Positions 31,087-58,358 of a stretch of 64,000 nucleotides of DNA are shown here, in pieces. Position numbers and translations under genes: made by a program. This DNA is from Brachyhypopomus gauderio (taxonomy: Eukaryota > Chordata > Actinopteri > Gymnotiformes > Hypopomidae). Below the pieces are notes generated by a model. That model was not told the DNA's origin and did not search any database. It saw only the letters and a program-made list of their open reading frames with translations. The stretch covers positions 248,001 through 312,000 of the forward strand of contig NW_027506876.1 of assembly GCF_052324685.1 (NCBI RefSeq). The letters are read 5' to 3'. Position 1 is the first letter of the stretch, and each line of letters begins with the position of its first letter.

Positions 31087-31116
31087 GGGTTCACACACAT
31101 AGTGTGGGAAACCTAT
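31087..31116 (+). other. Head hairpin of nested element (type A example)
   Basis: gggttcacaca is followed within a few bases by its near-complement tgtgggaaacc, so the head can fold on itself. The other heads (gagcaccaaaggtgct; aagcactgaaggtgctgg) keep the fold with different bases. Confidence 0.6.
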
Positions 31117-31914
31117 TGTTATTGCTCGGATTTTTCTTTCTTATTATTAGGGCTCCGAGCACCAAAGGTGCTGGAGGCCTATTGTAATTGTTAGGATTTT
31201 TCTCCTTATTAGGGTTCACACACGTAGTGTGGGAAACCTATTGTTATTGTTAGGTTTTTTCTTCTTTCTTATTAGGGTTCACACACGTAGTGTGGGAAAC
31301 CTATTGTTATTGTTAGGTTTTTTCTTCTTTCTTATTATTATTATTATTTTTCTCCGCATAAAACGCATACTGCAGCCTAAACCGTAAGGCCCAGGAAGAC
31401 CAAACTTGGCAGACTGGTGTAGTCTGTTTGCGGGACCGTGCTAAAGTACAGAGACCCACATTGGCCTGATGGTGGCGCTATAGCGCAGCATTTTGCGTTT
31501 TGGTCCATATCTCCCACCCCGTAGGTCGTAGAAACAAAATTCCACTTCAGGTGCATTCCTTGGCTCCAGACAAACAAAAAAGCCTCAAGAACCATTAAGC
31601 TCCGCCTACTTAGATTTTTGCTAATTTGCACAATATGCAAAACCTACTTTTTCATACTAGTCCCTGGTTTTTCATCTGATCACCACAATCTTGGTGTCAA
31701 AATATTCACAAGAATCTCATTATCAAGGAACATCAACAAAACTGTGACATTGGTATACAGTCTGGTTGTCACATGTCAATCAATAGCTCTGAGGCGTGGC
31801 CAAATTGACTTCAGCAGCTATATCTCAGCAATGCTTTGACCTATCTTTATGAAAATTTATCAGTTGTTAGGGCACATGACTCAGAGGTCACAGGTCAAAG
31901 CTGGCCACGATTGT

Positions 31915-31928
31915 CCAATAGGGGGCGC
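31915..31928 (+). promoter_or_regulatory. Second CTCF-like motif class (example)
   Basis: CCAATAGGGGGCGC (one base off the 14-mer consensus) followed by tata. Further copies start at 33817, 37795, 39896, 42841, 45027, 46880 and 49860. Confidence 0.5.
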
Positions 31929-32065
31929 TATAACATGGGGAAATTTGTTTCTCAGAAACCATTAGTCACATCAAGCCCAAACTTTACAGGCATCATCAGG
32001 GGCCCAAGTGGTATCAAGGCACACAATGATGACCTCATCACTCAAAAAACATGGCCGCCATGAGC

Positions 32066-32093
32066 CAATTAATTTTTATTTGAATTAATTGGC
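32066..32093 (+). repeat. AATTAATT inverted repeat next to ATGGCCGCCAT
   Basis: ccaattaatt and aattaattgg form a 10-bp inverted repeat, directly after atggccgccatgag. Present in all type A bodies, with small changes in elements 5, 7, 8 and 10. Confidence 0.6.
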
Positions 32094-32190
32094 CATTTGA
32101 CAGACTTACCATGGGCCAATCAACATGAAACCTCATCACTGTGCATATCCCAGGACTATGTGTCATACTGTGCAGTGTTGAAACATTTGG

Positions 32191-32204
32191 CCACTAGGTG
32201 GCGC
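32191..32204 (+). promoter_or_regulatory. CTCF-like motif, element 4
   Basis: CCACTAGGTGGCGC fits CCASYAGRKGGCRS at all 14 positions. With flanks (TGG before, TA after) it matches 17 of 19 bases of the vertebrate consensus TGGCCACCAGGGGGCGCTA as I recall it. Confidence 0.6.
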
Positions 32205-32871
32205 TATTTGTGAAAATCATGCATAACTCCTCCAAATTTTCACTTAGGAACATGCAACTTGTTTCTTTTTATACCTTGCAGTAGACCTGACAACTTTGCA
32301 ATTACAAGTCCTATTAAAAAATGCATACTTTTGTCACATTCATCAATTGTTTGAAAATAGCTCTTTAAGAACTAGTCCTAGGAATTTGATCCAATGATGG
32401 CAAAAATGGCATAGGCATAATCTGTAGACACTGTAGTTAACTAAATATGGAAAAAATGTTGCATTTTTATTTGTCTGATTGGTCAATTTTTCCATTATAT
32501 CCTTCTGGCCATGCCATAAATGACCTTTATTGCTATAACTCATAAACCATGTAAGTGATCAACTCCCAATTTGAAAGGCTTTTATACACTGAGGTCCTTG
32601 TGAGGTAGGCCAAGTTTGGTTCAAATTGGCCTGTCGGAGGCGCTACAGTACCCAAAAACCTGAGAAATCATAAAAACTCACGCAGCAATCTTGTTATGCA
32701 GAATACAGACAAGTAATGGGGCTTGTATGATTCAGATCAATGAGGTCTATAACATTGCAATTACATCTCATAACAAAAAGTGCACTGCCTGACCAGAAAT
32801 GAACCTTTTAATTCACCAAAATGTCATTGCATTACTGAGATTAATGAGATATCAGTATGATAGTACTTGGG

Positions 32872-32884
32872 CTCCATCTAGTGG
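32872..32884 (-). promoter_or_regulatory. Reverse-strand CTCF-like motif class (example)
   Basis: On the - strand this reads CCACTAGATGGAG, one base off the consensus over 13. Further copies start at 34774, 38752, 43800, 44083, 45986 and 47831. Each body thus holds forward and reverse sites. Confidence 0.45.
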
Positions 32885-33217
32885 CCAAACACCGAAACTG
32901 ACTGAAAACAATTGCTCACATGAAACACCACACAAACGCACACAAAGCTGATCTCAGCATGTGATTTAGTTCTGTGATCTGAATCATTTTGCCAATACAC
33001 ATTATTTTGATCCTTTTGGGCCTTTAGTGCCTCAATTGAATTGAATGTTTTGTCACATTGATTTACTTATGCATTTTTTCCACTCAAACAGCTTCTATTC
33101 ACTTTTGGGTCTAAAGGACCTATTGGGCTTCTTTTTGCCTGTTGAGGCCAAGAGGCCAATTTGTTAGTCTAAAAGACCTTTTGGGCTTTTTTGCCTTTTT
33201 TTGTGTGAACCCGCCAA

Positions 33218-33236
33218 TCGCCGCTTGCGGCTATAT
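33218..33236 (+). other. Tail hairpin of nested element (example)
   Basis: gccgc-tt-gcggc followed by tatat is the 3' end of every complete tail here, for example before 33236, 35138, 37213, 39116, 42256, 46301, 48152, 49275, 51818 and 54385. A GC-rich hairpin a few bases from the 3' end is a Helitron/Helentron hallmark. Confidence 0.65.
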
Positions 33237-33526
33237 TTATTATTATTATTTTTCTCCGCATAAAACGCATACTGCAGCCTAAACCGTAAGGCCCAGGGAG
33301 ACCAAACTTGGCAGACTGGTGTAGTCTGTTTGCGGGACCGTGCTTAAGTACAGACATCCAAATTGGCCTGATGGTGGCGCTATAGCACAGCATTTTGCGT
33401 TTGGGTTCATATCTCCCACCCCGTAGGTCGTAGAAACAAAATTCCACTTCAGGTGCATTCCTTGGCTCCAGACAAACAAAAAAGCCTCAAGAACCATTAA
33501 GCTCCGCCTACTTAGATTTTTGCTAA

Positions 33527-33543
33527 TTTGCATAATATGCAAA
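33527..33543 (+). promoter_or_regulatory. Octamer-type palindrome (example)
   Basis: TTTGCATAATATGCAAA contains ATTTGCAT-like half sites in both directions, as bound by POU/Oct factors. It recurs in every body, about 20 bp after ctccgcctac or ctccgccc; element 4 and element 11 have a changed base. Confidence 0.45.
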
Positions 33544-34092
33544 ACCTACTTTTTCATACTAGTCCCTGGTTTTTCATCTGATCACCACAATCTTGGTGTC
33601 AAAATATTCACAAGAATCTCATTATCAAGGAACATCAACAAAACTGTGACATTGGTATACAGTCTGGTTGTCACATGTCAATCAATAGCTCTGAGGCGTG
33701 GCCAAATTGACTTCAGCAGCTATATCTCAGCAATGCTTTGACCTATCTTTATGAAAATTTATCAGTTGTTAGGGCACATGACTCAGAGGTCACAGGTCAA
33801 AGCTGGCCACGATTGTCCAATAGGGGGCGCTATAACATGGGGAAATTTGTTTCTCAGAAACCATTAGTCACATCAAGCCCAAACTTTACAGGCATCATCA
33901 GGGGCCCAAGTGGTATCAAGGCACACAATGATGACCTCATCACTCAAAAAACATGGCCGCCATGAGCCAATTAATTTTTATTTGAATTAATTGGCCATTT
34001 GACAGACTTACCATTGGCCAATCAACATGAAACCTCATCACTGTGCATATCCCAGGACTATGTGTCATACTGTGCAGTGTTGAAACATTTGG

Positions 34093-34106
34093 CCACTAGG
34101 TGGCGC
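34093..34106 (+). promoter_or_regulatory. CTCF-like motif, element 3
   Basis: Same 14-mer and flanks as the site at 32191. Confidence 0.6.
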
Positions 34107-36015
34107 TATTTGTGAAAATCATGCATAACTCCTCCAAATTTTCACTTAGGAACATGCAACTTGTTTCTTTTTATACCTTGCAGTAGACGTGACAACTTTG
34201 CAATTACAAGTCCTATTAAAAAATGCATACTTTTGTCACATTCATCAATTGTTTGAAAATAGCTCTTTAAGAACTAGTCCTAGGAATTTGATCCAATGAT
34301 GGCAAAAATGGCATAGGCATAATCTGTAGACACTGTAGTTAACTAAATATGGAAAAAATGTTGCATTTTTATTTGTCTGATTGGTCAATTTTTCCATTAT
34401 ATCCTTCTGGCCATGCCATAAATGACCTTTATTGCTATAACTCATAAACCATTTAAGTGATCAACTCCCAATTTGAAAGGCTTTTATACACTGAGGTCCT
34501 TGTGAGGTAGGCCAAGTTTGGTTCAAATTGGCCTGTCGGAGGCGCTACAGTACCCAAAAACCTGAGAAATCATAAAAACTCACGCAGCAATCTTGTTATG
34601 CAGAATGCAGACAAGTAATGGGGCTTGTATGATTCAGATCAATGAGGTCTATAACATTGCAATTACATCTCATAACAAAAAGTGCACTGCCTGACCAGAA
34701 ATGAACCTTTTAATTCACCAAAATGTCATTGCATTACTGAGATTAATTAGATATCAGTATGATAGTACTTGGGCTCCATCTAGTGGCCAAACACCGAAAC
34801 TGACTGAAAACAATTGCTCACATGAAACACCACACAAACGCACACAAAGCTGATCTCAGCATGTGATTTAGTTCTGTGATCTGAATCATTTTGCCAATAC
34901 ACATTATTTTGATCCTTTTGGGCCTTTAGTGCCTCAGTTGAATTGAATGTTTTGTCACATTGATTTACTTATGCATTTTTTCCACTCAAACAGCTTCTAT
35001 TCACTTTTGGGTCTAAAGGACCTATTGGGCTTCTTTTTGCCTATTGAGGCCAAGAGGCCAATTTGTTGGTCTAAAAGACCCTTTGGGCTTTTTTGCCTTT
35101 TTTTGTGTGAACCCGCCAATCGCCGCTTGCGGCTATATTTATTATTATTATTCTTTTTCTGCCTTAAAACGGATCGCACAGCCCAAACCGTAAGGCCTAC
35201 AGACTTGAAACTTGGTCAATAGGTAGTAGTCCCTCCCGCTACTCAGGCGCAAGACGCCAGCCAAATCCGCCCATAGGTGGCGCTACAGCGCACGCAAACG
35301 CATTCAAGTAAATTGCCAGTACCACGTATGTCCTAAATTAAAAATTTTTTCATATACATGTTCCTTGTCTCCAAACCTACCAAAAAGCCTCAAGAACCCA
35401 TAAGCTCCGCCTACTTCGTTTTCGAGCTAATTTGCATAATATGCAAAATCGCACACATTTTTGAGAGCTAACTAGTCCCTGGATTTTTCACATACATGCA
35501 CATATGTGGTATCAAAACGTTCAGAAGAGTCTGAACTTTAATAATCTTTAACAAAAAATGCACATTTCTGCACATGGGCGTGGCCACATGCCACACAAGT
35601 CAAGGGGCAAAAATTTCACAGCCAAAAATGCACATTTTCTGCTGTATCTCATGCATACTTTTACATATTCACACCAAATTTCATATACATGTACCTGTTG
35701 GGCGTCTACACCTGCCCATACATTTTGGCACACATTCACACCTAGGGGGCGCTATAACTGCCAAAAAACTCTCCTGCACACACCGATTGGCCAAATAACA
35801 CGAAACTTGGTATGCATCATCTACATGCACCTCTGAGACAGGTCCTAGGTCTGCACCATCATATGTCCAATATGGCCGCCACCATCGACCAATTAGCTGT
35901 CAGTATACAATTTCACAAGCTTTACAAGCTTTACATATGTCAATTGACCTGAAACTCACATGGCATGTTCAGGTGCACACCCTCTAAGACATACTGGGGT
36001 ATGATGGCAATTGCA

Positions 36016-36029
36016 CCACTAGGTGGCGC
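36016..36029 (+). promoter_or_regulatory. CTCF-like motif, element 2
   Basis: Same 14-mer in a type B body; left flank is gca instead of tgg. Confidence 0.55.
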
Positions 36030-36553
36030 TATACTAGAAACTCCTGAATTACGCCCACATAGTATGACATAAAACAACAAACTTGGACTCATATGATTCT
36101 ACGTAGAATCCTTAACAACTTTGTAATTGCAAGTGCTTTACAAAAATGTACGGATTTTCACATATTATCAAATATGTATAATTTCCACTTTCCATACTAC
36201 GCCTAGGATTTTCACTCCATCACCTCAAATCACACCTTGATATACTTAGCAGACTATGCAATGCAAATGTTGTGCAAAAAATCCTAAGATTTCCACAAAT
36301 TTTTATTTTTCATATGCATCACAATGGTACCATCATAACACATCAAATTCATATTTTAATAACTCCGCTATAGTATGTCCTATGTTTATGAAAATTGACA
36401 TGCACATTCACATGACCATTGAGGTGATATGTGCCAAGTTTGAGCTAAATCCGTCCACAAATGACTCTACAGTGAATATTTTCAATTTCCATACTCAGCA
36501 GTGCAAGGAGCGGTAGAGAGCCTTTTGCAGGCACGCACGCTCTCATTCTCGCA

Positions 36554-36784
36554 GACGCAGAGTGCCCCTCTCATCCACTCCCCCCACACTCCCCCAACCT
36601 TCTAACACTTAACAACCCATGTCTCTGTCTCCCCCTCCCTCTCTCTATTTCACATGCACTCACTTCTCACACACGCAGAGTGCCCCTCTCATCCACTCCC
36701 CCCCACACTCCCCCAACCTTCTAACACTTAACAACCCATGGTCTCTGTCTCCCCCTCCCTCTCTCTATTTCACATGCACTCACA
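36554..36784 (+). repeat. Tandem duplication of about 119 bp, CT-rich
   Basis: cgcagagtgcccctctcatcc and the following CT-rich stretch occur twice (near 36555 and 36674). Open frames here only reflect low-complexity sequence. Confidence 0.75.
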
Positions 36785-38070
36785 GAAAAAACAGGCCTCC
36801 CTATAAGCTTCACATACACACTGCCTTAGCCATGCCTACTCATACATTAGAGTAACACATATAAACACCTAATTCACACACACACACACACACACATACA
36901 CCTACTTATGTGTATGCATCACAAATTGAGCACATACACTGTCATGTCAGACATGTGAGTTCACTGTGACAACTAAGACTGCCCATTATATGCAATCACT
37001 CACACACATACACAGCTCTAACTGATGAAAACAAACATTATCACACCAAACCCCTCTCTCTCTCTATTACACATGCACACACATGCACTGGCCTACCAAT
37101 AGGTTTCACATACACACTGGCCTAGCCATATCTACTATGCCTTCGCCGCAGGCATGCAAGTCGGTACCTATGCCACTTGCGAGGAGCCCGCTCATTGCCG
37201 CTTGCGGCTATATTTATTATTATTATTTTTCTCCGCATAAAACGCATACTGCAGCCTAGACCGTAAGGCCCAGGGAGACCAAACTTGGCAGACTGGTGTA
37301 GTCTGTTTGCGGGACCGTGCTAAAGTACAGAGACCCACATTGGCCTGATGGTGGCGCTATAGCGCAGCATTTTGCGTTTTGGTCCATATCTCCCACCCCG
37401 TAGGTCCTAGAAACAAAATTCCACTTCAGGTGCATTCCTTGGCTCCAGACAAACAAAAAAGCCTCAAGAACCATTAAGCTCCGCCTACTTAGATTTTTTG
37501 CTAATTTGCATAATATGCAAAACCTACTTTTTTATACTAGTCCCTGGTTTTTCATCGGATTTGTTCAATCTTGGTGTCAAAATATTCAGAAGAATCTCAT
37601 TATCAATAAATTTGAACAAAATTGTTACATTTGCATACAGTGTCGTTGTGACATGTCAATCAATAGCTCTGAGGCGTGGCCAAATTCACTTCAGCAGCTA
37701 TATCTCAGCAATGCTTTGACCTATCTTTATGAAAATTTATCAGTTGTTAGGGCACATGACTCAGAGGTCACAGGTCAAAGCTGGCCACGATTGTCCAATA
37801 GGGGGCGCTATAACATGGGGAAATTTGTTTCTCAGAAACCATTAGTCACATCAAGCCCAAACTTTACAGGCATCATCAGGGGCCCAAGTAGTATCAAGGC
37901 ACACAATGATGACCTCATCACTCAAAAAACATGGCCGCCATGAGCCAATTAATTTTTATTTGAATTAATTGGCCATTTGACAGACTTACCATTGGCCAAT
38001 CAACATGAAACCTCATCACTGTGCATATCCCAGGACTATGTGTCATACTGTGCAGTGTTGAAACATTTGG

Positions 38071-38084
38071 CCACTAGGTGGCGC
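38071..38084 (+). promoter_or_regulatory. CTCF-like motif, element 1
   Basis: Same 14-mer with the tgg left flank. Confidence 0.6.
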
Positions 38085-40172
38085 TATTTGTGAAAATCAT
38101 GCATAACTCCTCCAAATTTTCACTTAGGAACATGCAACTTGTTTCTTTTTATACCTTGCAGTAGACCTGACAACTTTGCAATTACAAGTCCTATTAAAAA
38201 ATGCATACTTTTGTCACATTCATCAATTGTTTGAAAATAGCTCTTTAAGAACTAGTCCTAGGAATTTGATCCAATGATGGCAAAAATGGCATAGGCATAA
38301 TCTGTAGACACTGTAGTTAACTAAATAAGGAAAAAATGTTGCATTTTTATTTGTCTGATTGGTCAATTTTTCCATTATATCCTTCTGGCCATGCCATAAA
38401 TGACCTTTATTGCTATAACTCATAAACCATGTAAGTGATCAACTCCCAATTTGAAAGGCTTTTATACACTGAGGTCCTTGTGAGGTAGGCCAAGTTTGGT
38501 TCAAATTGGCCTGTCGGAGGCGCTACAGTACCCAAAAACCTGAGAAATCATAAAAACTCACGCAGCAATCTTGTTATGCAGAATACAGACAAGTAATGGG
38601 GCTTGTATGATTCAGATCAATGAGATCTATAACATTGCAATTACATCTCATAACAAAAAGTGCACTGCCTGACCAGAAATGAACCTTTTAATTCACCAAA
38701 ATGTCATTGCATTACTGAGATTAATGAGATATCAGTATCATAGTACTTGGGCTCCATCTAGTGGCCAAACACCGAAACTGACTGAAAACAATTGCTCACA
38801 TGAAACACCACACAAACGCACACAAAGCTGATCTCAGCATGTGATTTAGTTCTGTGATCTGAATCATTTTGCCAATACACATTATTTTGATCCTTTTGGG
38901 CCTTTAGTGCCTCAGTTGAATTGAATGTTTTGTCACATTGATTTACTTATGCATTTTTTCCACTCAAACAGCTTCTATTCACTTTTGGGTCTAAAGGACC
39001 TATTGGGCTTCTTTTTGCCTATTGAGGCCAAGAGGCCAATTTGTTGGTCTAAAAGACCCTTTGGGCTTTTTTGCCTTTTTTTGTGTGAACCCGCCAATCG
39101 CCGCTTGCGGCTATATTTAGGGTTCACACACGTAGTGTGGGAAACCTATTGTAATTGCTGAGATTTTTCTTATTAGGGTTCACACACGTAGTGTGGGAAA
39201 CCTATTGTAATTGTCGGGTTTTCTTTCTTATTATTAGGGTTCACACACACATAGTGTGGGAACCCTATTGTAATTGTTAGCGTTTTTCTTATTATTATTA
39301 TTATTATTATTATTATTCTTTTTCCCATTTTGCTGTCTATAAATGATACTGCAGCCTAAACCGTAAGGCCTAGACACACCAAACTTGCCAAACTTGTTCT
39401 CTAGGTCAAAAGGACCACACACACTTATAGGGACCCACATCGGCCTGATGGTGGCGCTATAGCACACTATGTGACTTTTTGGCCCATATCTCCCATACCA
39501 TAAGTCATAGAAACAAAATTCCACTTCCTGTGCATTCCTTGGCTCAATTCAATAGGACATTTCATATACAACTATGAAGCTCCGCCTACTTAGATTTTTT
39601 GCTAATTTGCATAATATGCAAAACCTACTTTTGCCTACTACTCCTTGGTTTTTCGTCTGATCACCACAGTCTTGGTATCAAACTACTCAGAAGAATCTCA
39701 TTATCAAAACCCATCGCCAACATTGTGACATTGCCATACAGCCTGGCTGTCACATGTCAATCAATAGCTCTGAGGCGTGGCCAAATTTACTTCAGCAGCT
39801 ATATCTCAACAATGCTTTGACCAATCTTCATGAAAATTTATCAGTTGTTAGGACACATGACACAGAGGTCACAGGTCAAAGCTGGCCACGATTGTCCAAT
39901 AGGGGGCGCTATAACATGGGAAAAACTGTTTCTCAGAAACCATTAGTCACATCAAGCCAAAACTTTACAGGCATCATCATGGGGTCAAGTGGTATCAAGA
40001 CACACAATGATGACCTCATCACTCAAAAAACATGGCCGCCATAAGCCAATTAATTTTAATTTTAATTAATTGGCCATTTGACAGACTTACCATAGGTATA
40101 TACACATGAAACTGACATGGTATGTTCATGTACACACCCTCTAAGACATACTCATGTTAGAAGGGAATTGCA

Positions 40173-40186
40173 CCACTAGGTGGCGC
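40173..40186 (+). promoter_or_regulatory. CTCF-like motif, element 7
   Basis: Same 14-mer with the type B gca flank. Confidence 0.55.
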
Positions 40187-40934
40187 TATACTAGAAAATC
40201 CTGAATTTCTCCTACATATTTTCACTTATCAAGAAATGCTTGCACTCATATGATTGTATGCAGAATTCCTAACAACTTTGTAATTACATGTGCTTTGCAA
40301 AAATGTACCACTTTTTCACTATTATCAAATATATATAACTTGCCATTTTCATACTAGTCCTAGCATTTTAACTCCATCACCTTAAATCACACCTTGTAAT
40401 ACTCAGCAGACTCTGAAATGCTAAGATTAGCGAAAAAATCCTAAGTTTTTGACAAATTAATATTTTTCATATGCATCACAATGCTACCATCATAACACAT
40501 CAAATTCCCAGTTCAATAACTACGCCATAGTATGTCTGATTGTTATGGAAATTGAAATCCACATTCACATGACCATTGTGGTGCGATGTGCCAATTTTGA
40601 GCCAAATCCGTCCACAAACAGCTCTACAGTGAATATTTTCGTTTTCCATACAAAGCAGTGGAGGGAGGCATACACAGCTGCTAAGCCACACACGCACGTG
40701 CCTTTCTCACACACTCTGCCCCCCCCTCCTCCACTCCCCTCACACTCCCCCTTGCTTCCAACACTTTACAACCCATGGGCTCTACCTCCCCCCCCCTCTC
40801 TTTCACATGCACTTACAAAAACACAGGCCTCTGTAGCTTTCACACTGCCCTTGCCATACCTACCCATTTCTCTATGAGTAACCCAGATACAAACACACAA
40901 ACTGACGTTTAGCTTCTGTTTTTGAAAACACACA

Positions 40935-40972
<38 letters not shown>
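40935..40972 (+). repeat. (CT)n-(CA)n microsatellite
   Basis: A CT run passes directly into a CA run within element 7. Confidence 0.9.
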
Positions 40973-40975
<3 letters not shown>

Positions 40976-41032
40976 ACTTATAGGTTTAACATACACACTG
41001 CCCTAGCCATGTATACCCATTACTCTTTGACT

Positions 41033-41036
<4 letters not shown>

Positions 41037-41078
<42 letters not shown>
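41037..41078 (+). repeat. (CA)n microsatellite
   Basis: About 21 CA units within element 7. Confidence 0.92.
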
Positions 41079-41080
<2 letters not shown>

Positions 41081-41490
41081 TATTTAACTTTTTTCTCCAT
41101 ACACATTCACACACAGGACTACAATTATGCTTCATATACACAGTTCTCTAGCCATTTCCAACACACTAACTGATGTTTAGCTTATTTTTGTCATCCAAAG
41201 ACACACTAAGATAATCTCAGCAAGTGATTTAGATCTATTATCTGAATTGTTTTGCCATTACAATGTTTTGTGACCTTTTGGGCCTTGGTGACTCATAAGC
41301 CAGTTAAATGGACACTGATACTTCAGAGCACGCTACATGTATTCAAATCCAAGGTTAATTATTTACTCTAAACAATGCTTATACAGGCCCAATTATGTAT
41401 AGACACATGCAGGCCTTCCTATACTGTTCACATAGATGCAGCCCTAGCCAGATGTGCTATTTCTGTGTCTCCTTTTCTGACACAAGCAGA

Positions 41491-41727
41491 TGTCAGTCAT
41501 GTCAGTCCAGTCATGTCAGACATAAGTCGTGTCAGTCATATCAGTCATGTCATGCCAGTCATGTCACTCATATCAGTCATGTCATTACAGTCATGCTAGT
41601 CATGTCACTCATTCCAGTCATGCCAGTTGTCAGTCATATCAGTCATGTTATTTTTGTTCATCATGCCAGTGAAGTCATTCCAGTCATATCAGTTATGTCA
41701 GTCATACCAGTCATGTCAGTCATGTTA
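41491..41727 (+). repeat. cagtcatgt minisatellite in element 7
   Basis: Degenerate 9-10-bp units (cagtcatgt, cagtcatat) in tandem. Open frames across it are repeat artefacts. Confidence 0.85.
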
Positions 41728-43116: not shown

Positions 43117-43130
43117 CCACTAGGTGGCGC
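43117..43130 (+). promoter_or_regulatory. CTCF-like motif, element 6
   Basis: Same 14-mer with the tgg left flank, kept although the surrounding body has diverged. Confidence 0.6.
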
Positions 43131-44390: not shown

Positions 44391-46301
44391 GGGTTCACAC
44401 ACACAGTGTGGGAAACCTATTGTTATTGTCAGGTTTTTTCTTTCTTTCTTATTATTATTTTTCTACTGATAAAACGCATACTGCAGCCTAGACCGTAAGG
44501 CCCAGGGAGACCAAACTTGGCAGGATGGTGTAGTCTCTTTGCGAGACCGTGCTAAAGCACAGAGACCCACATTGGCCTGATGGTGGCGCTATAGCGCACC
44601 ATTTTGCGTTTTGGTCCATATCTCCCAAACCGTAGGGCCTAGAAACAAAATTCCACTTCTGATGGATTCCTTGGCTCAAGCCAAACAAAAAAGCCTCAAG
44701 AACCATTAAGCTCCGCCTACTTAGATTTTTTGCTAATTTGCATAATATGCAAAACCTACTTTTTTATACTAGTCCCTGGTTTTTTATCGGATCACCACAA
44801 CCTTGGTGTCAAAATATTCAGGAGAATCTCATTATCAAAGTTGCTTAAAAACATTTTGAGATTTGCATATAGTCAGGCTGTCACATGTCAATCAATAGCT
44901 CCGAGGCGTGGCCAAATTTACTTAAACAGCCATATCTCAGCAACGCTTTGACCGATCTTCATAAAATTTTAACAGTTGTTAGGGCACATGACTCCGAGGT
45001 CACAGGTCAAAGCTGGCCATGATTGTCCAATAGGGGGCGCTATAACATGGGAAAAACTGTTTCTCAGAAACCATTAGTCACATCAAGCCAAAACTTTACA
45101 GGCATCATCAGGGGCCCAAGTGATATCAAGACACACAATGATGACATCATCACTCAAAAAACATGGCCGCCATGAGCCAATTAATTTTTATTTGAAATAA
45201 TTGGCCATTTGACAGACTTACCATTGGCCAAACAACATGAAACCTCACCACTGTGCATATCTCAGGACTATGTGTCATGCTGTGCAGTTTTGAAACATTT
45301 GGCCACTAGGTGGCGCTATTTGTGAAAATCATGCATAACTCCTCCAAATTTTCACTTAGGAACATGCAACTTGTTTCTTTTTATTCCTTGCAGTAGACCT
45401 GATAACTTTGCAATTACAAGTCCTATTTAAAAATGCATACTTTTGTCATATTCATCAATTGTTTGAAAATAGCTCTTTAAGAACTAGTCATAGGAATTTG
45501 ATCCAATTATGGCAAAATTGCTATGAGCATAATCAGTAGACTCTGTAGGTAAAAAGTGATTAAAAAAATTTTGGATTTTTATTTTTCTGATTGGTCCATT
45601 TTCCCATTATATCATTGTGGCCATGCCATATATGACCTATATTGCTATAACTCATAAACCATGTATGCAATCAACTCCCAATTTGAAAGGCTTTTATATC
45701 CTGAAGTCCTTGTGAGGCATGCCAAGTTTGGTTCAAATTGGCCTGTCGGGGGCGCTACAGTACCCAAAAACCTAAGAAAACATAAAAACTCATGCTGCAA
45801 TCTTGTTATGCAGAATACAGACAAGTAATTGGTCTTGTATGATCCAGATCAATAAGTTCTATAACATTGCAATTGCATCTTATAACAAAAAGTGCACTGC
45901 CTGACCAGAAATGAACCTTTTATTTCACCAAAATGTCATATTGCATTACTGAGATTAATGAGATATCAGTATGATGGTACTTGGGCTCCATCTAGTGGCC
46001 AAACACCGAAACTGACTGAAAACTATTGCTCACATGAAACACCACACAAAAACACACACAAAGCTGATCTCAGCATGTGATTTAGTTCTGTGATTTGAAT
46101 CATTTTGCCAATACACATTATTTTGATCCTTTTGGGCCTTTAGTGCCCCAATTGAACATTTTTTTGCACATTGATTTATTTGTGCATTTTTTCCACTCAA
46201 ACAGCTTCTTTTGGGTCTAAAGGACCTATTGGGTCTATTGCCTATTGAAGCCAAGTGGCCTATTCGTGTGTGAACCCGCCAATTGCCGCTTGCGGCTATA
46301 T
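44391..46301 (+). mobile_element. Nested element 8 (type A)
   Basis: This 1911-bp copy runs from gggttcacacacacagtg to gcggctatat and lies inside element 5. Its body is close to that of element 5, diverged from the set formed by elements 1, 3 and 4. Confidence 0.7.
45303..45316 (+). promoter_or_regulatory. CTCF-like motif, element 8
   Basis: Same 14-mer with the tgg left flank. Confidence 0.6.
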
Positions 46302-47155
46302 TTATTATTATTTTTCCCCCTGTAAAACGCATACTGCAGCCTAGACCGTAAGGCCCAGAAAGACCAAACTTGCCAGCAAGGTGCAGCAGGTGTGCAATGA
46401 GAGAAATAGAGACAGGGACCCACATTGGCCTGATGGTGGCGCTATAGCGCACCATTTTGCGTTTTGGTCCATATCTCCCAAACCGTAGGGCCTAGAAACA
46501 AAATTCCACTTCTGATGGATTCCTTGGGTCAAGGCAAATAAAAAATAAATTTGAACCATTAAGCTCCGCCTACTTAGATTTTTTGCTAATTTGCATAATA
46601 TGCAAAACCTACTTTTTTATACTAGTCCCTGGTTTTTTATCGGATCACCACAACCTTGGTGTCAAAATATTCAGGAGAATCTCATTATCAAAGTTGCTTA
46701 AAAACATTTTGAGATTTGCATATAGTCTGGCTGTCACATGTCAATCAATAGCTCCGAGGCGTGGCCAAATTTACTTAAACAGCCATATCTCAGCAACGCT
46801 TTGACCGATCTTCATAAAATTTTAACAGTTGTTAGGGCACATGACTCCGAGGTCACAGGTCAAAGCTGGCCACGATTGTCCAATAGGGGGCGCTATAACA
46901 TGGGAAAAACTGTTTCTCAGAAACCATTAGTCACATCAAGCCAAAACTTTACAGGCATCATCAGGGGCCCAAGTGATATCAAGACACACAATGATGACAT
47001 CATCACTCAAAAAACATGGCCGCCATGAGCCAATAATTTTTTTTTTGAATTAATTGGCCATTTGACAGACTTACCATTGGCCAAACAACATGAAACCTCA
47101 CCAGTGTGCATATCTCAGGACTATGTGTCTTGCTGTGCAGTTTTGAAACATTTGG

Positions 47156-47169
47156 CCACTAGGTGGCGC
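47156..47169 (+). promoter_or_regulatory. CTCF-like motif, element 5
   Basis: Same 14-mer with the tgg left flank. Confidence 0.6.
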
Positions 47170-48155
47170 TATTTGTGAAAATCATGCATAACTCCTCCAA
47201 ATTTTCACTTAGGAACATGCAACTTGTTTCATTTTATTCCTTGCAGTAGACCTGACAACTTTGCAATTACAAGTCTTATTAAAAAATGCATAGTTTTGTC
47301 GCATTCATCTATTGTTTGAAAATAGCTATTTACAAACTTGTCATAGGAATTTGATCCAATTATGGAAAAATTGCTATGAGCATAATCAGTAGACTCTGTA
47401 GGTAAAAACTGAGTAAAAAAATGTTGGATTTTTATTTATCTGATTGGTCCATTTACCCATTATATCATTGTGGCCATGCCATTTATGACCTATATTGCTA
47501 TAACTCATAAACCATGTATGCAATCAACTCCCAATTTGAATGGCTTTTATAACCTGATGTCCTTGTGAGGTATGCCAAGTTTGGTTCAAATTGGCCTGTC
47601 GGGGGCGCTACAGTACCCAAAAACCTAAGAAAACATAAAAACTCATGCTGCAATCTTGTTATGCAGAATACAGACAATTAATTGGTCTTGTATGATCCAG
47701 ATCAATAAGTTCTATAACATTGCAATTACATCTTATAACAAAAAGTGCACTGCCTGACCGGAAATGAACCTTTTAATTCACCAAAATGTCATTGCATTAC
47801 TGAGATTAATGAGATATCAGTATGGTAGTACTCCATCTAGTGGCCAAACACCGAAACTGACTGAAAACTATTGCTCACATGAAATACCACACAAACACAC
47901 ACAAAGCTGATCTCAGCATGTGATTTAGTTCTGTGATCTGACTCAATTTCCCAATACACATTATTTTGATCCTTTTGGGCCTTTAGTGCCCCAATTGAAC
48001 CTTTTTTTGCACATTAATTTATTTGTGCATTTTTTTCCACTCAAACAGCTTCTTTTCACATTTAGGGTCTAAAGGACCTTTTGGGCCTCTGCCTATTGAG
48101 GCCAAGAGGCCTATTCGTGTGTGAACCCGCCAATTGCCGCTTGCGGCTATATTTA

Positions 48156-49275
48156 GGGGTCCAAGCACTGAAGGTGCTGGAACCCTATTGTAATTGTTCC
48201 GATTATTATTATTATTCTTCTTTTTCTGCCCTAAAACGCGTTGTGCAGACCAAACCGTAACACCTACAGACTTCTCCTTTGGCCAACTTGTAGTACTCCT
48301 CTCCGCTACTCAGGCGCAACACGCCGGCCCGATCCGACCATAGGTGGCGCTATAGAGCGCAAAAAATTGTCACGCCTACACCGTATGTCATAAACAAAAA
48401 ATTCCAATTGCATCTGATCAGTCTTCTTCCATTCTACAAAAAATACATTTGAACCCATAAGCTCCGCCCCTTACATGTCGAGCTAATTTGCATAATATGC
48501 AAATTTGCACACATTTTTGAGCGCGTACTAGTCCCTGGATTTTTCACATACATGCACATATGTGGTATCAAAACGTTCAGAAGAGTCTGAACTTTAATTA
48601 TTATGGAGCCAAAGTGCACATTTCTGCACATGGGCGTGGCCACATGCATCACAAGTCAAGCGTAGAAAATTCCTTCGCCAAAAATGCACATATTCTGCTA
48701 TATCTCAGGCATTCTTTCACGTATTCATACCAAATTTCACATACATGTACCTATTGGGTGTCTAGACCTGCACATGCATTTTGGCAGACATGCACACCTA
48801 GGTGGCGCTATAACGGCCAAAAAACTCTCCTGCCCACACCGATTGGCCAAATAACTCCAAACTTGGTACGCATCATCTATATGCACCTATGACACAGGTC
48901 CTTGACCTGCACCATCATATGTCCAATATGGCCGCCGCTATCGACCAATCAGCTTTCAGTTCACATTTCACAAGCTTATCATAAGCCAATCAACATGAAA
49001 CTCACATATTATGTTCATCTACACACCCTCTAAGACATACTCAAGTATGATGGGAATTGCACCACTAGGTGGCGCTATACTAGAATTTCCTGAATTACCC
49101 CTACATCTTTCTTACACATGCACACACATGCAATGGCCTACCTATAGGTTTCATATACACATTGCTTCACCCATACCTACCCAGTGATTACAAACACATG
49201 CTTACGCATCTCAGGCGTGCCAGATGGTGCCCATACCCTGTGCTTGGACCCCGTAATTGCCGCTTGCGGCTATAT
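48156..49275 (+). mobile_element. Nested element 9 (type B)
   Basis: This short 1120-bp copy has the clearest paired ends: head ggggtccaagcac and tail gtgcttggacccc are perfect inverted 13-mers, followed by the usual gccgcttgcggctatat. The body start is type B. The right flank is ttcttc rather than a clean TTA. Confidence 0.75.
49062..49075 (+). promoter_or_regulatory. CTCF-like motif, element 9
   Basis: Same 14-mer with the type B gca flank. Confidence 0.55.
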
Positions 49276-51818
49276 TTCTTCTTATTATTATTTTTCTCCG
49301 GATAAAACGCATACTGCAGCCTAGACCGTAAGGCCCAGGGAGACCAAACTTGGCAGTATGGTGTAGTCTGTTTGCGGGACCATGCTAAAGTACAGACACC
49401 CACATTGGCCTGATGGTGGCGCTATAGCGCAGCATTTTGCGTTTTGGTCCATATCTCTCACCCCGTAGGTCCTAGAAACAAAATTCCACTTCAGGTGCAT
49501 TCCTTGGCTCCAGACAAACAAAAAAGCCTCAAGAACCATTAAGCTCCGCCTACTTAGATTTTTTGCTAATTTGCATAATATGCAAAACGTATTTTTTTAT
49601 ACTTGTCCCTGGTTTTTCATCTGATCACCACAATCTTGGTGTCAAAATATTCACAAGAATCTCATTATCAAGGAATATTAACAAAACTGTGACATTGGTA
49701 TACAGTCTGGTTGTCACATGTCAATCAATAGCTCTGAGGCGTGGCCAAATTTACTTCAGCAGCTATATCTCAGCAATGCTTTGACCAATCTTCATGCAAA
49801 TTTATCAGTTGTTAGGACACATGACTCAGAGGTCACAGGTCAAAGCTGGCCACGATGGTCCAATAGGGGGCGCTATAACATGAGAAAAACTGTTTCTCAG
49901 AAACCATTAGTCACATCAAGCCAAAACTTTACACGCATCATCATGGGGTCAAGTGGTATCAAGACACACAATAATGACCTCATCACTCAAAAAACATGGC
50001 CGCCATAAGCCAATTAATTTTAATTTGAATTAATTGGCCATTTGACAGACTTACCATGGGTACATACACATGAAACTGACATGGTATGTTCATGTACACA
50101 CACTTTAAGACATACTTTTGTTAGAAGGCAATTGCACCACTAGGTGGCGCTATACTAGAAAATCCAGAATTTCTCCTACATATTTTCACTTATCAAGAAA
50201 TGCTTGCACTCATATGATTGTATGCAGAATTCCTAGCAACTTTGTAATTACATGTGCTTTGCAAAAATGTACCACTTTTTCACTATTATCAAATATATAT
50301 AACTTGTCATTTTCATGCTAGTCCTAGCATTTTAACTCCATCACCTTAAATCACACCTTGTAATACTCAGCAGACTCTGAAATGCTAAGATTAGTGAGAA
50401 AATCCTAAGGTTTTGACAAATTAATATTTTTCATATGCATCACAATGCTACCATCATAACACATCAAATTCACAGTTCAATAACTACGCCATAGTATGTC
50501 TGATTGTTAAGAAAATTGACAACCACATTCTCATGACCATTGTGGTGCTATGTGCCAATTTTGAGCCAAATCCGTCCACAAACAGCTCTACAGTGAATAT
50601 TTTCATTTTCCATACTGAGCTGTGCAGGGAGAAGACGAGAACTGCTCAGCCCACACGCACGTGCCATTCTCGCACACGCTGCCCCCCTCCTCCACTCCCC
50701 CATCCTTCTAACATTTTACAACCCTTGGGCTCTCCCTCCTCCCTCTCTCTCTTTCACATGCACTCACAAAAACAAAGACCTCTCTGGCCTATAGGTTTTA
50801 CATACACACTAATTCTAGCCATTACTACCAATTACCCAGTGAATAATATACAGATATTTAGCTTCTTTTTTTCCACACACCCTCACACATGACTTCCTAT
50901 ATGCTTCATATATACATTTCTCTAGCCATTTCCAACACACTAACTGATATTTAGCTTCATTTTTCCATCCACACTCTCAACTCATGCCCTCTATACATCC
51001 TGAAATGACATAAGAGAGGACAGAGATATGTAATTCACATTTCACACACAACCTCTATATAACTGCATGCTTTACTTATCATCAAAGTCTTGTTAGATAC
51101 ACATTCCTAGTGGCCTCCCTACTATGGGCACAACAGTGATAACATGTCAGAGTAGGGATGAGAACATCATGAACAGGCAAAGATAAGAATATTTGTGTTA
51201 TTTTATTGTATACTAAGCCATCACTCTTTGGTTTGTTTGAGATTCACATGTGACAGATTTTGTCAGCTAAATGAAAAGGGTTAAAGAGTGGGGTTTACAT
51301 GTGGGGCATTAACAAGAGCTCTCCTGCTGCTATGTTCACAACTTCTGACAAATTCAGCCAAAGGTATATTTATTTGACTAGGCCCCTGGGTCAGTGTATC
51401 AGTGCTTTTAACCTAATCTCAGCATTTGATTTAGTTGTATGGTCTGAATCATTTTGCTAATATCTTCCACACTGTATGGCCTAGAAACAAATTTCTACTT
51501 CAGCTGTATTCCTTTGCTCAAGCCAACCAAAAAAGCCTCAAGAAGCCCTTACTGCATACATGAAAAAACACACAAACACACACATACAAAGCTAATCACA
51601 GCATTTGATTAACTTCTATGATCTGAATCATTTTGCCATTACATTTTGTTTTGATCTTTTGGGCCTTTATTGCCCCAGTTGAATAATTTTTTGCAAATTA
51701 CTTTATCTGTCCATTTTTTGGACTGAAGTAGCTTCATATCACTTGTTGGTCTAAAAGACCCTTTGGGCTTTTGTGCCTTTTTTTGTGTGAACCCGCCAAT
51801 CGCCGCTTGCGGCTATAT
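49276..51818 (+). mobile_element. Nested element 10 (body and tail without a head)
   Basis: It begins in the T-rich tract (ttcttcttattatta) and carries a type A start, a type B middle like element 7, and a tail gtgtgaacccgcc...gcggctatat. No unpaired head is left for it: the nest has 10 heads and 11 tails. The region 50880-51450 resembles nothing else here apart from short AT-rich sequence. Confidence 0.62.
50137..50150 (+). promoter_or_regulatory. CTCF-like motif, element 10
   Basis: Same 14-mer with the type B gca flank. Confidence 0.55.
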
Positions 51819-52736
51819 TTAGGGTTCACACACATAGTGTGGGAACCCTATTGTAATTGCTCGAGTTTTTCTTATTATTATTATTTTTCAGGCTGTAAAA
51901 CGCATACTGCAGCCTAGACCGTAAGGCCCAGAAACACCAAACTTGGCAGACAGTTGCACCAGAGGTGCAATGAGGGAAACCCAGACAATGACCCACATTG
52001 GCCTGATGGTGGCGCTATAGCGCAGCATTTTGTGTTTTGGTCCATATCTCCTACACCGTAGGTCATAGAAACGAAATTCCACTTCTGATGGATTCCTTGG
52101 CTCAAACCAAACAAAAAAGCCTCAAGGACCCTTTAGCTCCGCCCACTTAGATTTCGAGTTAATTTGCATAATGTGCAAAATCGCACACATCTTTGAGCCC
52201 AAACTTGTCCCTGGATTTTTCACATACATGCACATATGTGGTATCAAAACGTTCAGAAGAGTCTGAACTTTAAAATCTATCCAGCAAAAATGCTAATTTC
52301 ATCACTACCTAGTCAGTATAAGCCAATCAAATGAGAGGGTGTAAACTCAATAGTAAATTTTGCGCATATGAAGCTCTAACTGCAGAAAACTTGCATGCAA
52401 TGAGATGACACTTCACAGACAGCTTCCCTCTGAGGGTCTGGGGCAGCTCGCAGAGGTTGCCATACCTCACCTGCTAGGGGGCGCTATAACATGCAAAAAT
52501 TTGCCCCATGCACTCAGATTGGCCGATCCACATGAAACTTGGCAGACATCATCTATGGGCCTCTGGGAACCAGGTCCTAAAACAGACATGCCATACTTCC
52601 AAAATGGCTGACGTAATCGGCCAATCAGTGATCGGCACGCGTTTGACAGGCTTACCATTGGTCGATCTGCACGAAACCTCTTGGGTGTGGAAAAGTGCAC
52701 ACCCCCTATGACATAATCCAGCCAGGTGTCGATTGG

Positions 52737-52750
52737 CCACTGGGGGGCGC
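52737..52750 (+). promoter_or_regulatory. CTCF-like motif, element 11
   Basis: CCACTGGGGGGCGC preceded by tgg and followed by ta; 17 of 19 bases of the recalled consensus. Confidence 0.55.
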
Positions 52751-53635
52751 TATTGCAAATAAAGCAAGTATATCCCCTACATAATTCCACTTGGGAACAT
52801 GCAATTAGACTCTTTTGATTCCTTGCAGTAGTGCGAACAACTTTCCCATTACATGTCCTATTAAAAAATGCACAGTTTATTTACAGTTAATAATAGTTTG
52901 AAATCATCACTTTTCATACTCCTCCTAGGATTTTCATACTATCATGTCAAGCAAAGTCTTATAATACTCTACAGAGTGTGAAATCAAAAAACAATCCAAA
53001 GATTTTGGATTTGAGGACACTTATACCTGCTAAATATTTTTTTAATGGACAGCATCGATACATATAATATTCATATTCTTAAAGCTCTTTCATATTTTAC
53101 CCAATTCTGACCAAAATGCACAAGCCCATTCAGAATCCCATCCTGAACAAATTTGTCAAGTTTCATCTAAATCGGTTATCGTATGGCTCTACAGTGCAGT
53201 ATTATATACAATGCATAAAAATGCATGTAAAGTCCCTCTGTCACCTTCTCCTTCTCACACGCACGCAAGCTGAAACTCACACTCTCAGTCTCTCTCACAC
53301 TCTCACCCACATTCCCCCTCCCATCTCTGTGCCCTAAGTAAACATTGCTCTGGCTACCTAGATCTCTCTGTGTCTATTAACCAGGCACACACACATACAG
53401 GCGCAAGCAGGCCTTCCTATAGCATTCACAATGACACTTCCCTAGCCATACCCACCCATATCTCAGTGACTAACACATGCTCATACAAACTGATATTTGG
53501 CTTCTTTTTTGTCTCTCTCTCTCACACAAACACACAGACACACACACCTTTATACCTATATGTATGTATAGTTTCTATGTAAACTTATGTATGTATGTAT
53601 TAGTATATGTTGTCATAGTTTGAGTACATACACTA

Positions 53636-53636
<1 letters not shown>

Positions 53637-53679
<43 letters not shown>
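53637..53679 (+). repeat. (CA)n microsatellite
   Basis: About 21 CA units within element 11. Confidence 0.92.
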
Positions 53680-53681
<2 letters not shown>

Positions 53682-53736
53682 CTACCTAAATGTATGTAGT
53701 TTGTATGCATATCTATAGTATATGTATAGTATATGT

Positions 53737-54012
53737 AAGTCATGCCAGTGATGTCAGTCATATCAGACATGCCAGTCCAGTCATGTCAGTCATATCAGTC
53801 ATGTCAGTGATGCCAGTCATGTAAGTCATGTCATGCCAATCATTTCAGTCCAGTCATATCAGTCATTTCAGTCCAGTCATATCAGTCATTTCAGTCAAAT
53901 CATCAAATCATTACAGTCATGCCAGTTATGTCAGTCATATCAGTCATGTTAATTTTGTTCGCCATGGCAGTGATGTCATTCCAGTCATGCCAGTCATGTC
54001 AGTCATGTAATG
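53737..54012 (+). repeat. cagtcatgt minisatellite in element 11
   Basis: Same minisatellite as in element 7, followed by the same flank (ggctttgcagactac). Confidence 0.85.
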
Positions 54013-54363
54013 CCAGGCTTTGCAGACTACATTCATACTTTGAATACATGGGCAGTCATGTTAGGCATGCTAGGTGTGTAAAGAGTGAATTAACAAAGCA
54101 TAGTCTCTGGCTCCCTCAATCTCTCTCTGTCGGTGATATACAGGCCCAATCATGTATAGACACATGCAGGCCTTCCTATATTGTTCACATAGATGCAGCC
54201 CTAGCCAGATGTGCTGTTTCTGTGTCTCCCTTTCTGACACATGCAGATGTCATTACACACTATCTGTAGAGCACACACTGGCCAAACCCAAACAGCTTCT
54301 TTTCACTTTTAGGTCTAAAGGACCTTTTGGGCTTCCTTTTGCTTATTGTGTGTGTGAACCCGC

Positions 54364-56260
54364 CTATCGCCGCTTGCGGCTATATTTAATTTTTGGAACT
54401 AATAAAAGACCAGCACCCTGTGATCTTAGTGGGCGTGGGGGTTCGTAATAGGAAATAAGTTCCTGAAGGTACTCAGGAGCAAGCCCGTGCAATGCTTTAT
54501 AAGTTAATAAAAGAATTTTAAAGTCAATACGGAATTTAACTGGGAGCCAATGCAGGGCTGATAGGACTGGACTGATATGCTGAAATTTTCTAGTTCTGGT
54601 CAGAACCCTGGCTGCGGCATTTTGAACTATTTGAAGTTTATTTAGATTCCTATTTGAACATCCTGACAGTAGTGCATTGCAGTAGTCTAATCTAGAGCTA
54701 ACAAAGGCGTGCACCAATTTTTCCGCATCATCCTGTGATAATGCATTTCTTAATTTAGCAATGTTACGGAGATGTAGAAAAGCTATCCTAGTAGTATTAT
54801 CTATGTATTTATCAAATGATAGGTCAGAGTCGAGTATGACGCCTAGGTTTTTGGCTACTGTGCCAGGTGTAATGGGGTAGCCTGCGAGATTAAGCATTAG
54901 ATCTGGAATTTTCTGTTTTGAGGCCTTAGGGCCCAGAAGAAGAACTTCTGTTTTGTCCTCATTAAGTTGGAGGAAGTTTAGAGACATCCAGCATTTAATA
55001 TCTTTTACACAGGCCTCAATTTTTCTTAAAATGAGTTTGTCATCAGGTTTGGCTGATATGTAAAGTTGAGTGTCATCTGCATAGCAGTGAAAATTGACAC
55101 CATGTTTGTTTATAACTGTGCCCAATGGTAGCATATATAGTGTAAATAATAGTGGTCCTAGAATGGAGCCTTGCGGGATCCCATATTTAACTTTTGTACG
55201 TTTGGATGGAATATTATTGAGCTCTACAAACTGATAGCGATTTGTTAAGTAAGAATGAAACCATGAAAGGGCTGTGCCAGAGACTCCAACCCAGCGTTCT
55301 AACCTTTCTAGCAAGATCCTATGATCAATTGTGTCGAAAGCTGCACTAAGATCAAGAAGCACTAACAGCGATACATAACCTTGATCTGAAGCAAGGAGGA
55401 GGTCATTTGTTACTTTAACTAATGCTGTTTCAGTACTGTGATGGGGCCTAAAACCAGATTGGAACTTTTCAAATATGTGATGCCTATGCAGATATAGGCA
55501 TAATTGCTGGGCAACAGCTTTTTCTATGATCTTAGATATAAATGATGTGTTTGAAATGGGTCTATAATTAGATAGTACAGTAGGATCAAGATTTGGTTTC
55601 TTAATCAGAGGTTTAATAACTGCTAATTTACATGATTTGGGCATGTGACCTATTGTAATGGATGAGTTAACTATAGTTAGAAGAGGTTCAGTTACCGCTG
55701 GTAATACCTCTTTTAATAACTTTGATGGAACAGAGTCTAGTGTGCAGGTAGCACAATTTAAGGAAGAAATTATTTTCTCTAATTCTGATTGTGGGAGTGG
55801 ATGAAAAGCATCAAGTTTTTCTCCCAGTATGCGATTTAAATCGATGTCAACCAAACCAGATGACATACCAGTTGTATTGCTAATAAAAGGTTTTATATTT
55901 TGTCTAATATTCTCTATTTTATTATCAAAAAAATCTATAAATACATTACTAGTGAGGTTTACTGGAATCTGAGGTTCTGCGCCTGCTTGATTTTTTGTAA
56001 GTTTGGAAATAGTATTAAAAAGAAATCTAGGATTGTTTTTATTTTTCTCTATCAGTGAGGCTAGGTATGCTGAGCGTGCTTTAGCGAGTGCCCGTTTGTA
56101 GTCAATGATGCTATCCTTCCAGGCACAGTAGAATACTTCCAACTTAGTAGATCGCCATTTACGCTCTAATTTACGTGCTATTTGTTTTAAGTTTCTAGTT
56201 TGGTCAGTGTACCACGGAGCGAGTTTTTTAGATCTAGTCTTTTTATATTTGAGTGGAGCT
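54364..56260 (-). CDS. LINE ORF2 fragment: reverse transcriptase
   Basis: The frame is open from the truncated 5' edge of the LINE, with no ATG at its beginning; the first TTG is at 56142. Counting from that TTG, RT motifs appear in order: NYRPIS (192-197), FQSGFRP (227-232), motif A DLSAAFD (264-270), motif [11 protein letters not shown] (321-330), motif C YADD (354-357) with both aspartates, and LNEDKTE (393-399). A C-terminal connection region follows, with LHWLPV and LAPEYL, then YEPPRPLR, as in L2-like elements. The upstream part ([10 protein letters not shown]) matches the linker after the endonuclease, which is missing. The last residues IKYSRKRR come mostly from the inserted element's 3' hairpin, not from the LINE. 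It is not a host gene. Without the 5' half this copy cannot be autonomous. Confidence 0.88.
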
Positions 56261-56265
56261 ACCTA
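56261..56265. repeat. LINE target-site duplication, right
   Basis: ACCTA; array sequence continues directly after it. Confidence 0.8.
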
Positions 56266-56353
56266 CTGCTTAGCCATTGTTGACATGATGACTTCCATGC
56301 TCTGATTGTATGAGGAAACGCCCACGAGAGATGTGCCCATTCAGACAAGCAAG

Positions 56354-56426
56354 GTTTCTGTAGTGTAGTGGTCATCACGTTTGCCTAACATGCGAAAGGT
56401 CCCTGGTTCGGTACCAGGCAGAAACA
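56354..56426 (+). tRNA. tRNA-Val(AAC), C29U, C38U, A58G
   Basis: First tRNA after the LINE. The B box reads ggttcggtacc: A58, one of the most conserved tRNA and B-box bases, is G. Confidence 0.75.
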
Positions 56427-56865: not shown

Positions 56866-56938
56866 GTTTCTGTAGTGTAGTGGTCATCACGTTCGCCTAA
56901 CACGCGAAAGGTCCCTGGTTCGATACCAGGCAGAAACA
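56866..56938 (+). tRNA. tRNA-Val(AAC), consensus
   Basis: Full consensus cloverleaf; followed by aagctt. Confidence 0.92.
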
Positions 56939-58285: not shown

Positions 58286-58358
58286 GTTTCTGTAGTGTAG
58301 TGGTCATCACGTTCGCCTAACACGCGAAAGGTCCCTGGTTCGATACCAGGCAGAAACA
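58286..58358 (+). tRNA. tRNA-Val(AAC), consensus
   Basis: Full consensus cloverleaf. Confidence 0.92.

Follow-up and report, generated by a model that had tools for sequence, protein, structure and literature searches.

Positions 31087..54385 of a 64,000-nucleotide stretch of the Brachyhypopomus gauderio genome (contig NW_027506876.1, positions 248,001 to 312,000 of the forward strand; hereafter the window) are filled with copies of a mobile element that bear motifs resembling the binding site of the host architectural protein CTCF. Judged by its sequence, the carrier is a non-autonomous, non-coding rolling-circle transposon with Helitron2-type ends, represented in the window by about eleven copies (10 heads and 11 tails). 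A preliminary description of this DNA reported the motifs and their mobile carrier; it did not recognize the Helitron2-type ends or the copies nested inside copies.

Ends and nesting of the element

Each copy is laid out as a head, a TTA run, a non-coding body of ~1-3 kb and a tail. The head can be exemplified by AGGGTTCACACACGTAGTGTGGGAAACCTATTGTTATTG and the tail by GTGTGAACCC-GCCAATC-GCCGCTTGCGGC-TATA; in the A type, the first bases of the head are reverse-complementary to the arm in the tail. Units and arrays alike start with (T)A followed by GGGTTCACAC or GGGGTCCAAGC, which corresponds to the 5' asymmetric terminal repeat of Helitron2, 8-15 bp long and situated 0-2 bp from the 5' end. The repeat can form a hairpin with the sequence downstream of it (z -3.1, -4.8 and -3.7 in DNA folding of three head types). 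At the other end, the arm GTGTGAACCC or GCTTGGACCCC and the 22-23 bp that follow it, containing GCCGCTTGCGGC, correspond to the complementary 3' repeat of Helitron2; the short 3' stem alone folds no better than shuffles (z 0.05 and -0.59). Over 13 bases, the type-C arms GGGGTCCAAGCAC (head) and GTGCTTGGACCCC (tail) complement each other exactly, and those of type B match over only 7 bases (GGGCTCC/GGAGCCC). The flanks read at array ends are T-rich. No empty insertion site for the window array was recovered among the fetched loci described below, and we infer the exact end points of the element from the junctions.

The ends match the published definition of Helitron2 (PMC3627910) and are close to those of HINE/Helentron (PMC4067079), as given in the parts of these papers available to us. 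Likewise, the 5' repeat inside a 5' hairpin and the lack of coding capacity are shared with non-autonomous Helitron2/Helentron elements (HINE, DINE-1), as are the complementary 3' repeat 20-30 bp from the end, the 3' hairpin, the compensating arm changes and, probably, the T-rich target. Unlike those elements, as described in the same excerpts, the present one has a built-in TTA target, which leads to deep, ordered nesting, and carries CTCF-type motifs.

Other identities for the repeated unit were considered and rejected. A coding element is not supported by the 11 open reading frames of at least 100 aa that overlap the region, which are ten frames of 107-145 aa and a neighboring 592-aa reverse-transcriptase frame. 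No known RNA family reaches its gathering score in the region. The exact 17-mer CCACTAGGTGGCGCTAT occurs in 5 viral and 3 prokaryote contig stretches, none of which resembles the bodies, and the phage collection gave no match.

The nesting can be followed copy by copy along the forward strand, where heads are stacked ~50-75 bp apart and are followed by body-tail units that lack heads. The first array opens with four stacked 5' heads at 31087..31340 (arms A, B, A and A, starting at 31087, 31150, 31212 and 31275), that is, with four nested copies. Body 1 and its tail (type 1, 31353..33235) form the innermost copy and are followed by body 2 with its tail (type 1, 33255..35137). Body 3 (type 2, 35159..37210) ends in a B-arm tail, whose GGAGCCC is complementary over 7 bases to the B head at 31150, and body 4 with its tail (type 1, 37232..39115) closes the outermost copy. 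The bracket order of this array is (A(B(A(A A)A)B)A). Array 2 starts with three stacked heads at 39120..39300 (39120, 39176 and 39237), followed by body 5, which is long and mosaic, with its tail (39325..42262), and by type-1 body 6 with a truncated tail (42278..44386). The head of a further copy (44391..44417) precedes bodies 7 (44463..46300) and 8 (46318..48155), both of type 1 and both with tails. A complete short copy with C-type arms occupies 48156..49265. Mosaic body 10 (49297..51820) ends in the sole unmatched tail of the window, as its head was not found. The last copy (51822..54385) comprises a head, the most diverged body (body 11) and a tail.

We then considered arrays elsewhere in the genome (796.5 Mb, 840 contigs), using 20 regions fetched around exact core sites of the best CTCF-type motif (s3, see below) on contig C1. 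Heads and tails were parsed as a stack in 12 stretches. Besides the window, these comprise 17 fetched regions, with neighbors joined; the other three (L019, L030 and L033) have no family body and were omitted. Nine stretches yielded 45 head-tail pairs and three yielded none; 7 heads and 4 tails, some of them at stretch ends, stayed unpaired. Arm types agree in 44 of the 45 pairs, the remaining pair being A with C. Since 40 pairs are A with A, it is the B and C cases that carry the weight of this test. In two of the fetched arrays, no head or tail is left over (5 pairs in L021-22 and 8 in L025-23). In L017-18, A copies are enclosed by two C heads and the C tails matching them; a further C head has no partner, and a further C tail is matched to an A head. 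The loss of a single A tail would account for both the unpaired C head and the A/C pair.

The ~1.9 kb units and their single direction would also be expected of a tandem macrosatellite that arose by local duplication with no nested insertion. However, stacking of heads without bodies and the mirror order of arm types among tails do not fit such an origin. Neither do the closest relatives of 61 aligned core segments: 47 are closest to a segment of another array (9 at >=99%, with up to 100% identity over ~1.1 kb), and therefore copies mostly arrive by transposition, in some cases recently. The other 14 segments are closest to one in their own array, 11 of them at >=99%, so that there is room for some local copying or conversion. 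Given the stack parse and the core-segment relatives, we rejected tandem duplication as the main origin and regard a macrosatellite without nested insertion as highly improbable.

As read from the arrays, the T-rich run just inside the head is the favored target, at which new copies land in the same direction and nest. Because the element prefers its own TTA run, copies come to lie inside copies in a bracket-like manner, and CTCF-type sites become concentrated within the 23 kb. The bracket structure also preserves the order of insertions. Fusarium Helitrons that combine several 5' ends with one 3' end have been explained by self-insertion close to the 5' end (PMC5148889). In contrast to the few cases in the available part of that report, whole bodies are kept here and brackets balance in several arrays.

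Several further features of the window were noted. A 275-bp module (43977-44252) is tandemly copied in body 6 and brings a second reverse CTCF-type site. Two long bodies contain a ATGTCAGTC minisatellite (41490-41725 and 53733-54008), with CA runs nearby. On both sides of the array (1-30000 and 55000-64000) lie 198-bp satellite units that recur in longer blocks. An open frame of 592 aa with a reverse transcriptase domain (RVT_1, E 2.5e-35) occupies 54364-56142 on the reverse strand, and the array may sit in or beside this long interspersed nuclear element.

CTCF-type motifs in the window and genome-wide

The ten exact copies of CCACTAGGTGGCGC reported in the preliminary description were all found at their reported starts, and a letter search of the region bore out its count of eight for CCAATAGGGGGCGC. 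The same search revealed 26 motif sites with at most two mismatches, compared to 0.13 expected. We also scanned the region with the MA0139.1 matrix at thresholds of >=10 and >=20 bits, with 200 dinucleotide shuffles and 200 column-permuted matrices as controls. At >=20 bits there were 24 matches (18 forward and 6 reverse) versus a mean of 0.025 in shuffles (at most 1 per shuffle) and 0.005 for permuted matrices. At >=10 bits, the 23.3 kb region has 46 matches, the shuffles average 2.0 and the permuted matrices 1.36. The satellite on both sides (1-30,000 and 55,000-64,000) has zero matches at >=10 bits. Chance as the source of the motifs is ruled out by the difference between 24 and 0.025 matches.

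Individual sites are best illustrated with body 1. The best site, s3 (TGGCCACTAGGTGGCGCTA, 32188..32206, forward), scores 27.1 of the possible 29.5 bits, and its exact 14-base core occurs once in each of 10 of the 11 bodies. Site s2 (TGTCCAATAGGGGGCGCTA, 31912..31930, forward) scores 21.6 bits; the window has eight copies of it, of which the one at 49857 scores 19.6 bits. Site s1 (TGGCCTGATGGTGGCGCTA, 31462..31480, forward) is weaker (16.3 bits). The reverse-strand site (TGGCCACTAGATGGAGCCC, 32869..32887) scores 22.1 bits. Seven reverse sites, as previously counted, were recovered by the matrix scan (32869, 34771, 38749, 43797, 44080, 45983 and 47828), all of them in type-1 bodies. Another site noted earlier, at 52734 in body 11, differs from the long consensus at 2 of 19 bases and scores 24.1 bits. 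Overall, a body carries several CTCF-type motifs, mostly on one strand, one or two of them of top quality, with the reverse one in type-1 bodies. The idea of a mobile carrier with several sites per copy in both orientations is thus supported by the matrix scans, the bracket parse and the following genome counts.

Genome-wide, the exact tail GCCGCTTGCGGCTATATTT occurs 3,719 times. The motif classes CCACTAGGTGGCGC, CCAATAGGGGGYRCTATAAC (counted with decayed CpG allowed) and GGCCACTAGATGGAGSCC number 3,157, 2,434 and 2,195, respectively, and their reversed controls 0. The strict CTCF consensus CCASYAGRKGGCRS has 13,313 occurrences (control 84), and CCACTAGGTGGCGC, just one of its 64 variants, makes up 23.7% of them (3,157/13,313). 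About a fifth of the strict-consensus CTCF motifs of the genome thus apparently come from one transposon family, already grouped and oriented.

The link between motif and family is also seen in the fetched regions on C1. More than 1 kb of the family is present in 17 of the 20, and 32 of 35 exact sites lie inside family DNA. The family DNA (102.6 kb) holds 103 matches of >=20 bits, 79 forward and 24 reverse, compared with 6 in the other DNA of these regions (95.4 kb), three of which are the anchors themselves. A second sample, chosen without regard to CTCF, was the top of the tail list (100 tails, all from the first 43.5 Mb of C1). Of these, 86 fall into 15 clusters and 14 are solitary. None of the 15 clusters mixes strands, and clusters reach 12 exact tails in 25 kb. 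For 64 of the 100, the unit to which the tail belongs includes an exact s3 core.

A likely autonomous relative

Matches to Helitron_like_N number 85 genome-wide, many of them within open frames longer than 2,000 aa, and form two main groups. In group 2, a single frame (L049:2624-9999) combines RepHel with an OTU domain and a herpes-tegument-like protease domain. Three group-2 loci were read (C1:38769341, C8:688656 and C1:49934568), and each has a family body on the opposite strand beyond the RepHel frame. Measured from where the Rep domain starts, site s2 comes 8.8-9.2 kb further on at the three loci and a family head 9.5-9.9 kb further on at two. Downstream, C1:38769341 and C1:49934568 share 95% identity over DNA that extends into the family body. 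Among the sites listed, s2 lies at 8.80-8.86 kb in three of the five group-2 copies on C1, and a reverse site lies 11.44-11.45 kb on the other side in three of the five. These arrangements suggest that the group-2 RepHel gene, read opposite to the element, is the likely autonomous relative. The same opposite direction of RepHel is known for some Helitron2/Helentron elements, including zebrafish Helitron-1_DR, according to the portion of the study available (PMC3627910).

Group-1 RepHel showed no link to the family within the piece read. For five Rep matches on C1, belonging to several groups, the nearest exact tail among those listed is 18-379 kb away. Eleven group-1 RepHel matches in open frames of 1,575-2,378 aa are located within the first 660 kb of another contig (C2:48892-657404).

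Conservation and possible role of the motifs

The ends, the nesting and the dose and direction of the motifs are read directly from the DNA. Given these features, we consider it probable that the nested Helitron2-type array has host CTCF binding to the best site of many copies. CTCF would bind at least this site wherever the DNA is accessible and unmethylated. Each array would then offer a bank of CTCF sites pointing mostly one way, at which cohesin could be stalled from one side, and the element might gain open chromatin or insulation from silencing.

The preliminary description stated that the motifs stay intact in otherwise diverged bodies. In six representative bodies, this is true for s3 (99.6th conservation percentile), s1 (93.9th) and s2 (90.1st), but not for s4 (32nd) and the reverse site (9th). 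In favor of CTCF, 10 of 10 changed sites retain more of their matrix score than would be expected from random substitution (fractions 0.008-0.17); these sites were hand-picked from lineages that are not independent, and an eleventh pick was unchanged. Outside the motif, the flanks of s1-s4 show little likeness, with 2 of 12 comparisons as exceptions (matched by 0 and 2 of 200 shuffles). All that the reverse site has in common with the forward sites is the CTCF consensus, and it is without the GCTATA extension. A human parallel comes from EGR1, where the guide used to block a CTCF site with dCas9 contains ACTAGGTGGCGC, the C preceding it in the oligo being part of the cloning overhang, in the section of that work consulted (PMC6344568).

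Several observations weigh against CTCF binding as the role of the motifs. Other body types lack s4 and the reverse site or have lost them, with a score of -6.9 for s4 in body 3, and body segments unrelated to CTCF are equally conserved. Among the most conserved is an inverted octamer, TTTGCATAAT(A/G)TGCAAA, which 58 of 60 copies possess. The 5' (CCA) half of s1 and s2 drifts from one body type to another, whereas TAGG-GGCGCTATA stays; as the latter is kept beyond the CTCF core, another constraint could be at work. It might therefore be argued that the repeated core AGGKGGCGCTATA serves the element itself or some other zinc-finger or regulatory protein, and that the match to CTCF is partly coincidental. 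The conserved part running past the CTCF core to CTATA, the loss of CCA from s1 and s2 of type-2 bodies and the equal conservation of further segments such as the octamer are all in line with this. On the other hand, it leaves unexplained the near-maximal score of s3, the consensus as the only thing in common with the reverse site and the retention of scores under substitution, so that we find it unlikely. In our assessment, CTCF binding, judged from sequence, is likely at s3 and the reverse site and possible at s1 and s2. The drift, the equal conservation of other segments and the CpG counts given below speak against strong selection for such binding.

Two further features of the bodies deserve mention on their own. 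The inverted octamer, which we take to be of POU type, is seen in the window as TTTGCATAATATGCAAA at 31621-31640 and at equivalent positions, and a GCCGCCAT palindrome lies near 32050.

In the first 100 places for each, CpG has decayed in 2 cases for s3, in 3 for s2 and in 6 for a neighboring CpG 4 bp before s2. Decay of the motif CpGs is not significantly below that of the neighbor in this sample (Fisher p 0.19 to 0.50), another point to be set against the proposed role. In the 61 aligned segments, which come from copies fetched through s3, motif CpGs are intact in 59/59, 55/56 and 56/56 cases, and two other CpGs likewise in 59/59 and 56/56. The sites could also be passengers, able in principle to bind CTCF but located in arrays that are for the most part methylated or heterochromatic and leave chromosome folding unchanged. 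The location of the window array between satellite blocks, where it is possibly silent, fits this passenger status and counts against the proposed role as well; the CpG inside the motif and the repetitiveness of the arrays also favor it. Low decay of the three CpGs genome-wide (2-6 of the first 100 places) speaks against methylated arrays, but the youth of the copies explains it equally well. We hold such passive arrays to be possible rather than probable.

There are partial precedents, cited here from those parts of the papers that were accessible. The preliminary description drew a parallel with the known spread of CTCF sites by transposable elements. At the motif level the parallel is fair, but DNA carriers of the hAT type have already been published for zebrafish and lamprey: CTCF sites are supplied by SINE3-1a and HATN9_DR in the former (PMC9341505) and by hAT-Tip100 in the latter (PMC5504073). 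Those sites were identified as bound by footprints in the assay for transposase-accessible chromatin or by chromatin immunoprecipitation, whereas the motifs described here are candidate sites. Conversely, the present element has several sites per copy and forms nested arrays, and the accessible zebrafish text names no Helitron. Helitron ISX of Drosophila miranda is similar in being a Helitron that spreads binding motifs of a chromatin complex (PMC6598467); its motif serves dosage compensation on the neo-X, whereas the CTCF-type motifs here lie in arrays on many contigs. The closest likeness in layout is the Dxz4 macrosatellite, a long bank of tandem units with mostly one-way CTCF motifs that has been proposed to stall cohesin from one side (PMC5899087). 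Dxz4, however, is a single locus with Hi-C evidence, and the transposon arrays are dispersed. Among the matches listed in a literature search that left most subscription journals outside its coverage, none by title concerned a CTCF-bearing Helitron or a self-nesting fish Helitron. CTCF sites borne by transposable elements and Helitron self-insertion are both known; their combination, its scale and the one-way arrays look new.

A more far-reaching proposal is that the self-targeting Helitron builds directional super-anchors. Dispersed arrays, like small Dxz4 loci, would stall cohesin and set or shift domain borders genome-wide, possibly together with the inverted POU octamers of the same bodies, and the element would have been selected for this because its copies stay open or insulated. 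Such arrays, each with up to tens of mostly one-way sites, would number in the hundreds if C1 is a typical contig. We consider this proposal in full unlikely. The arrays constitute a natural experiment on how domain borders depend on the number of CTCF sites and their direction, and can also show whether a mobile element is able to exploit an architectural protein of its host.

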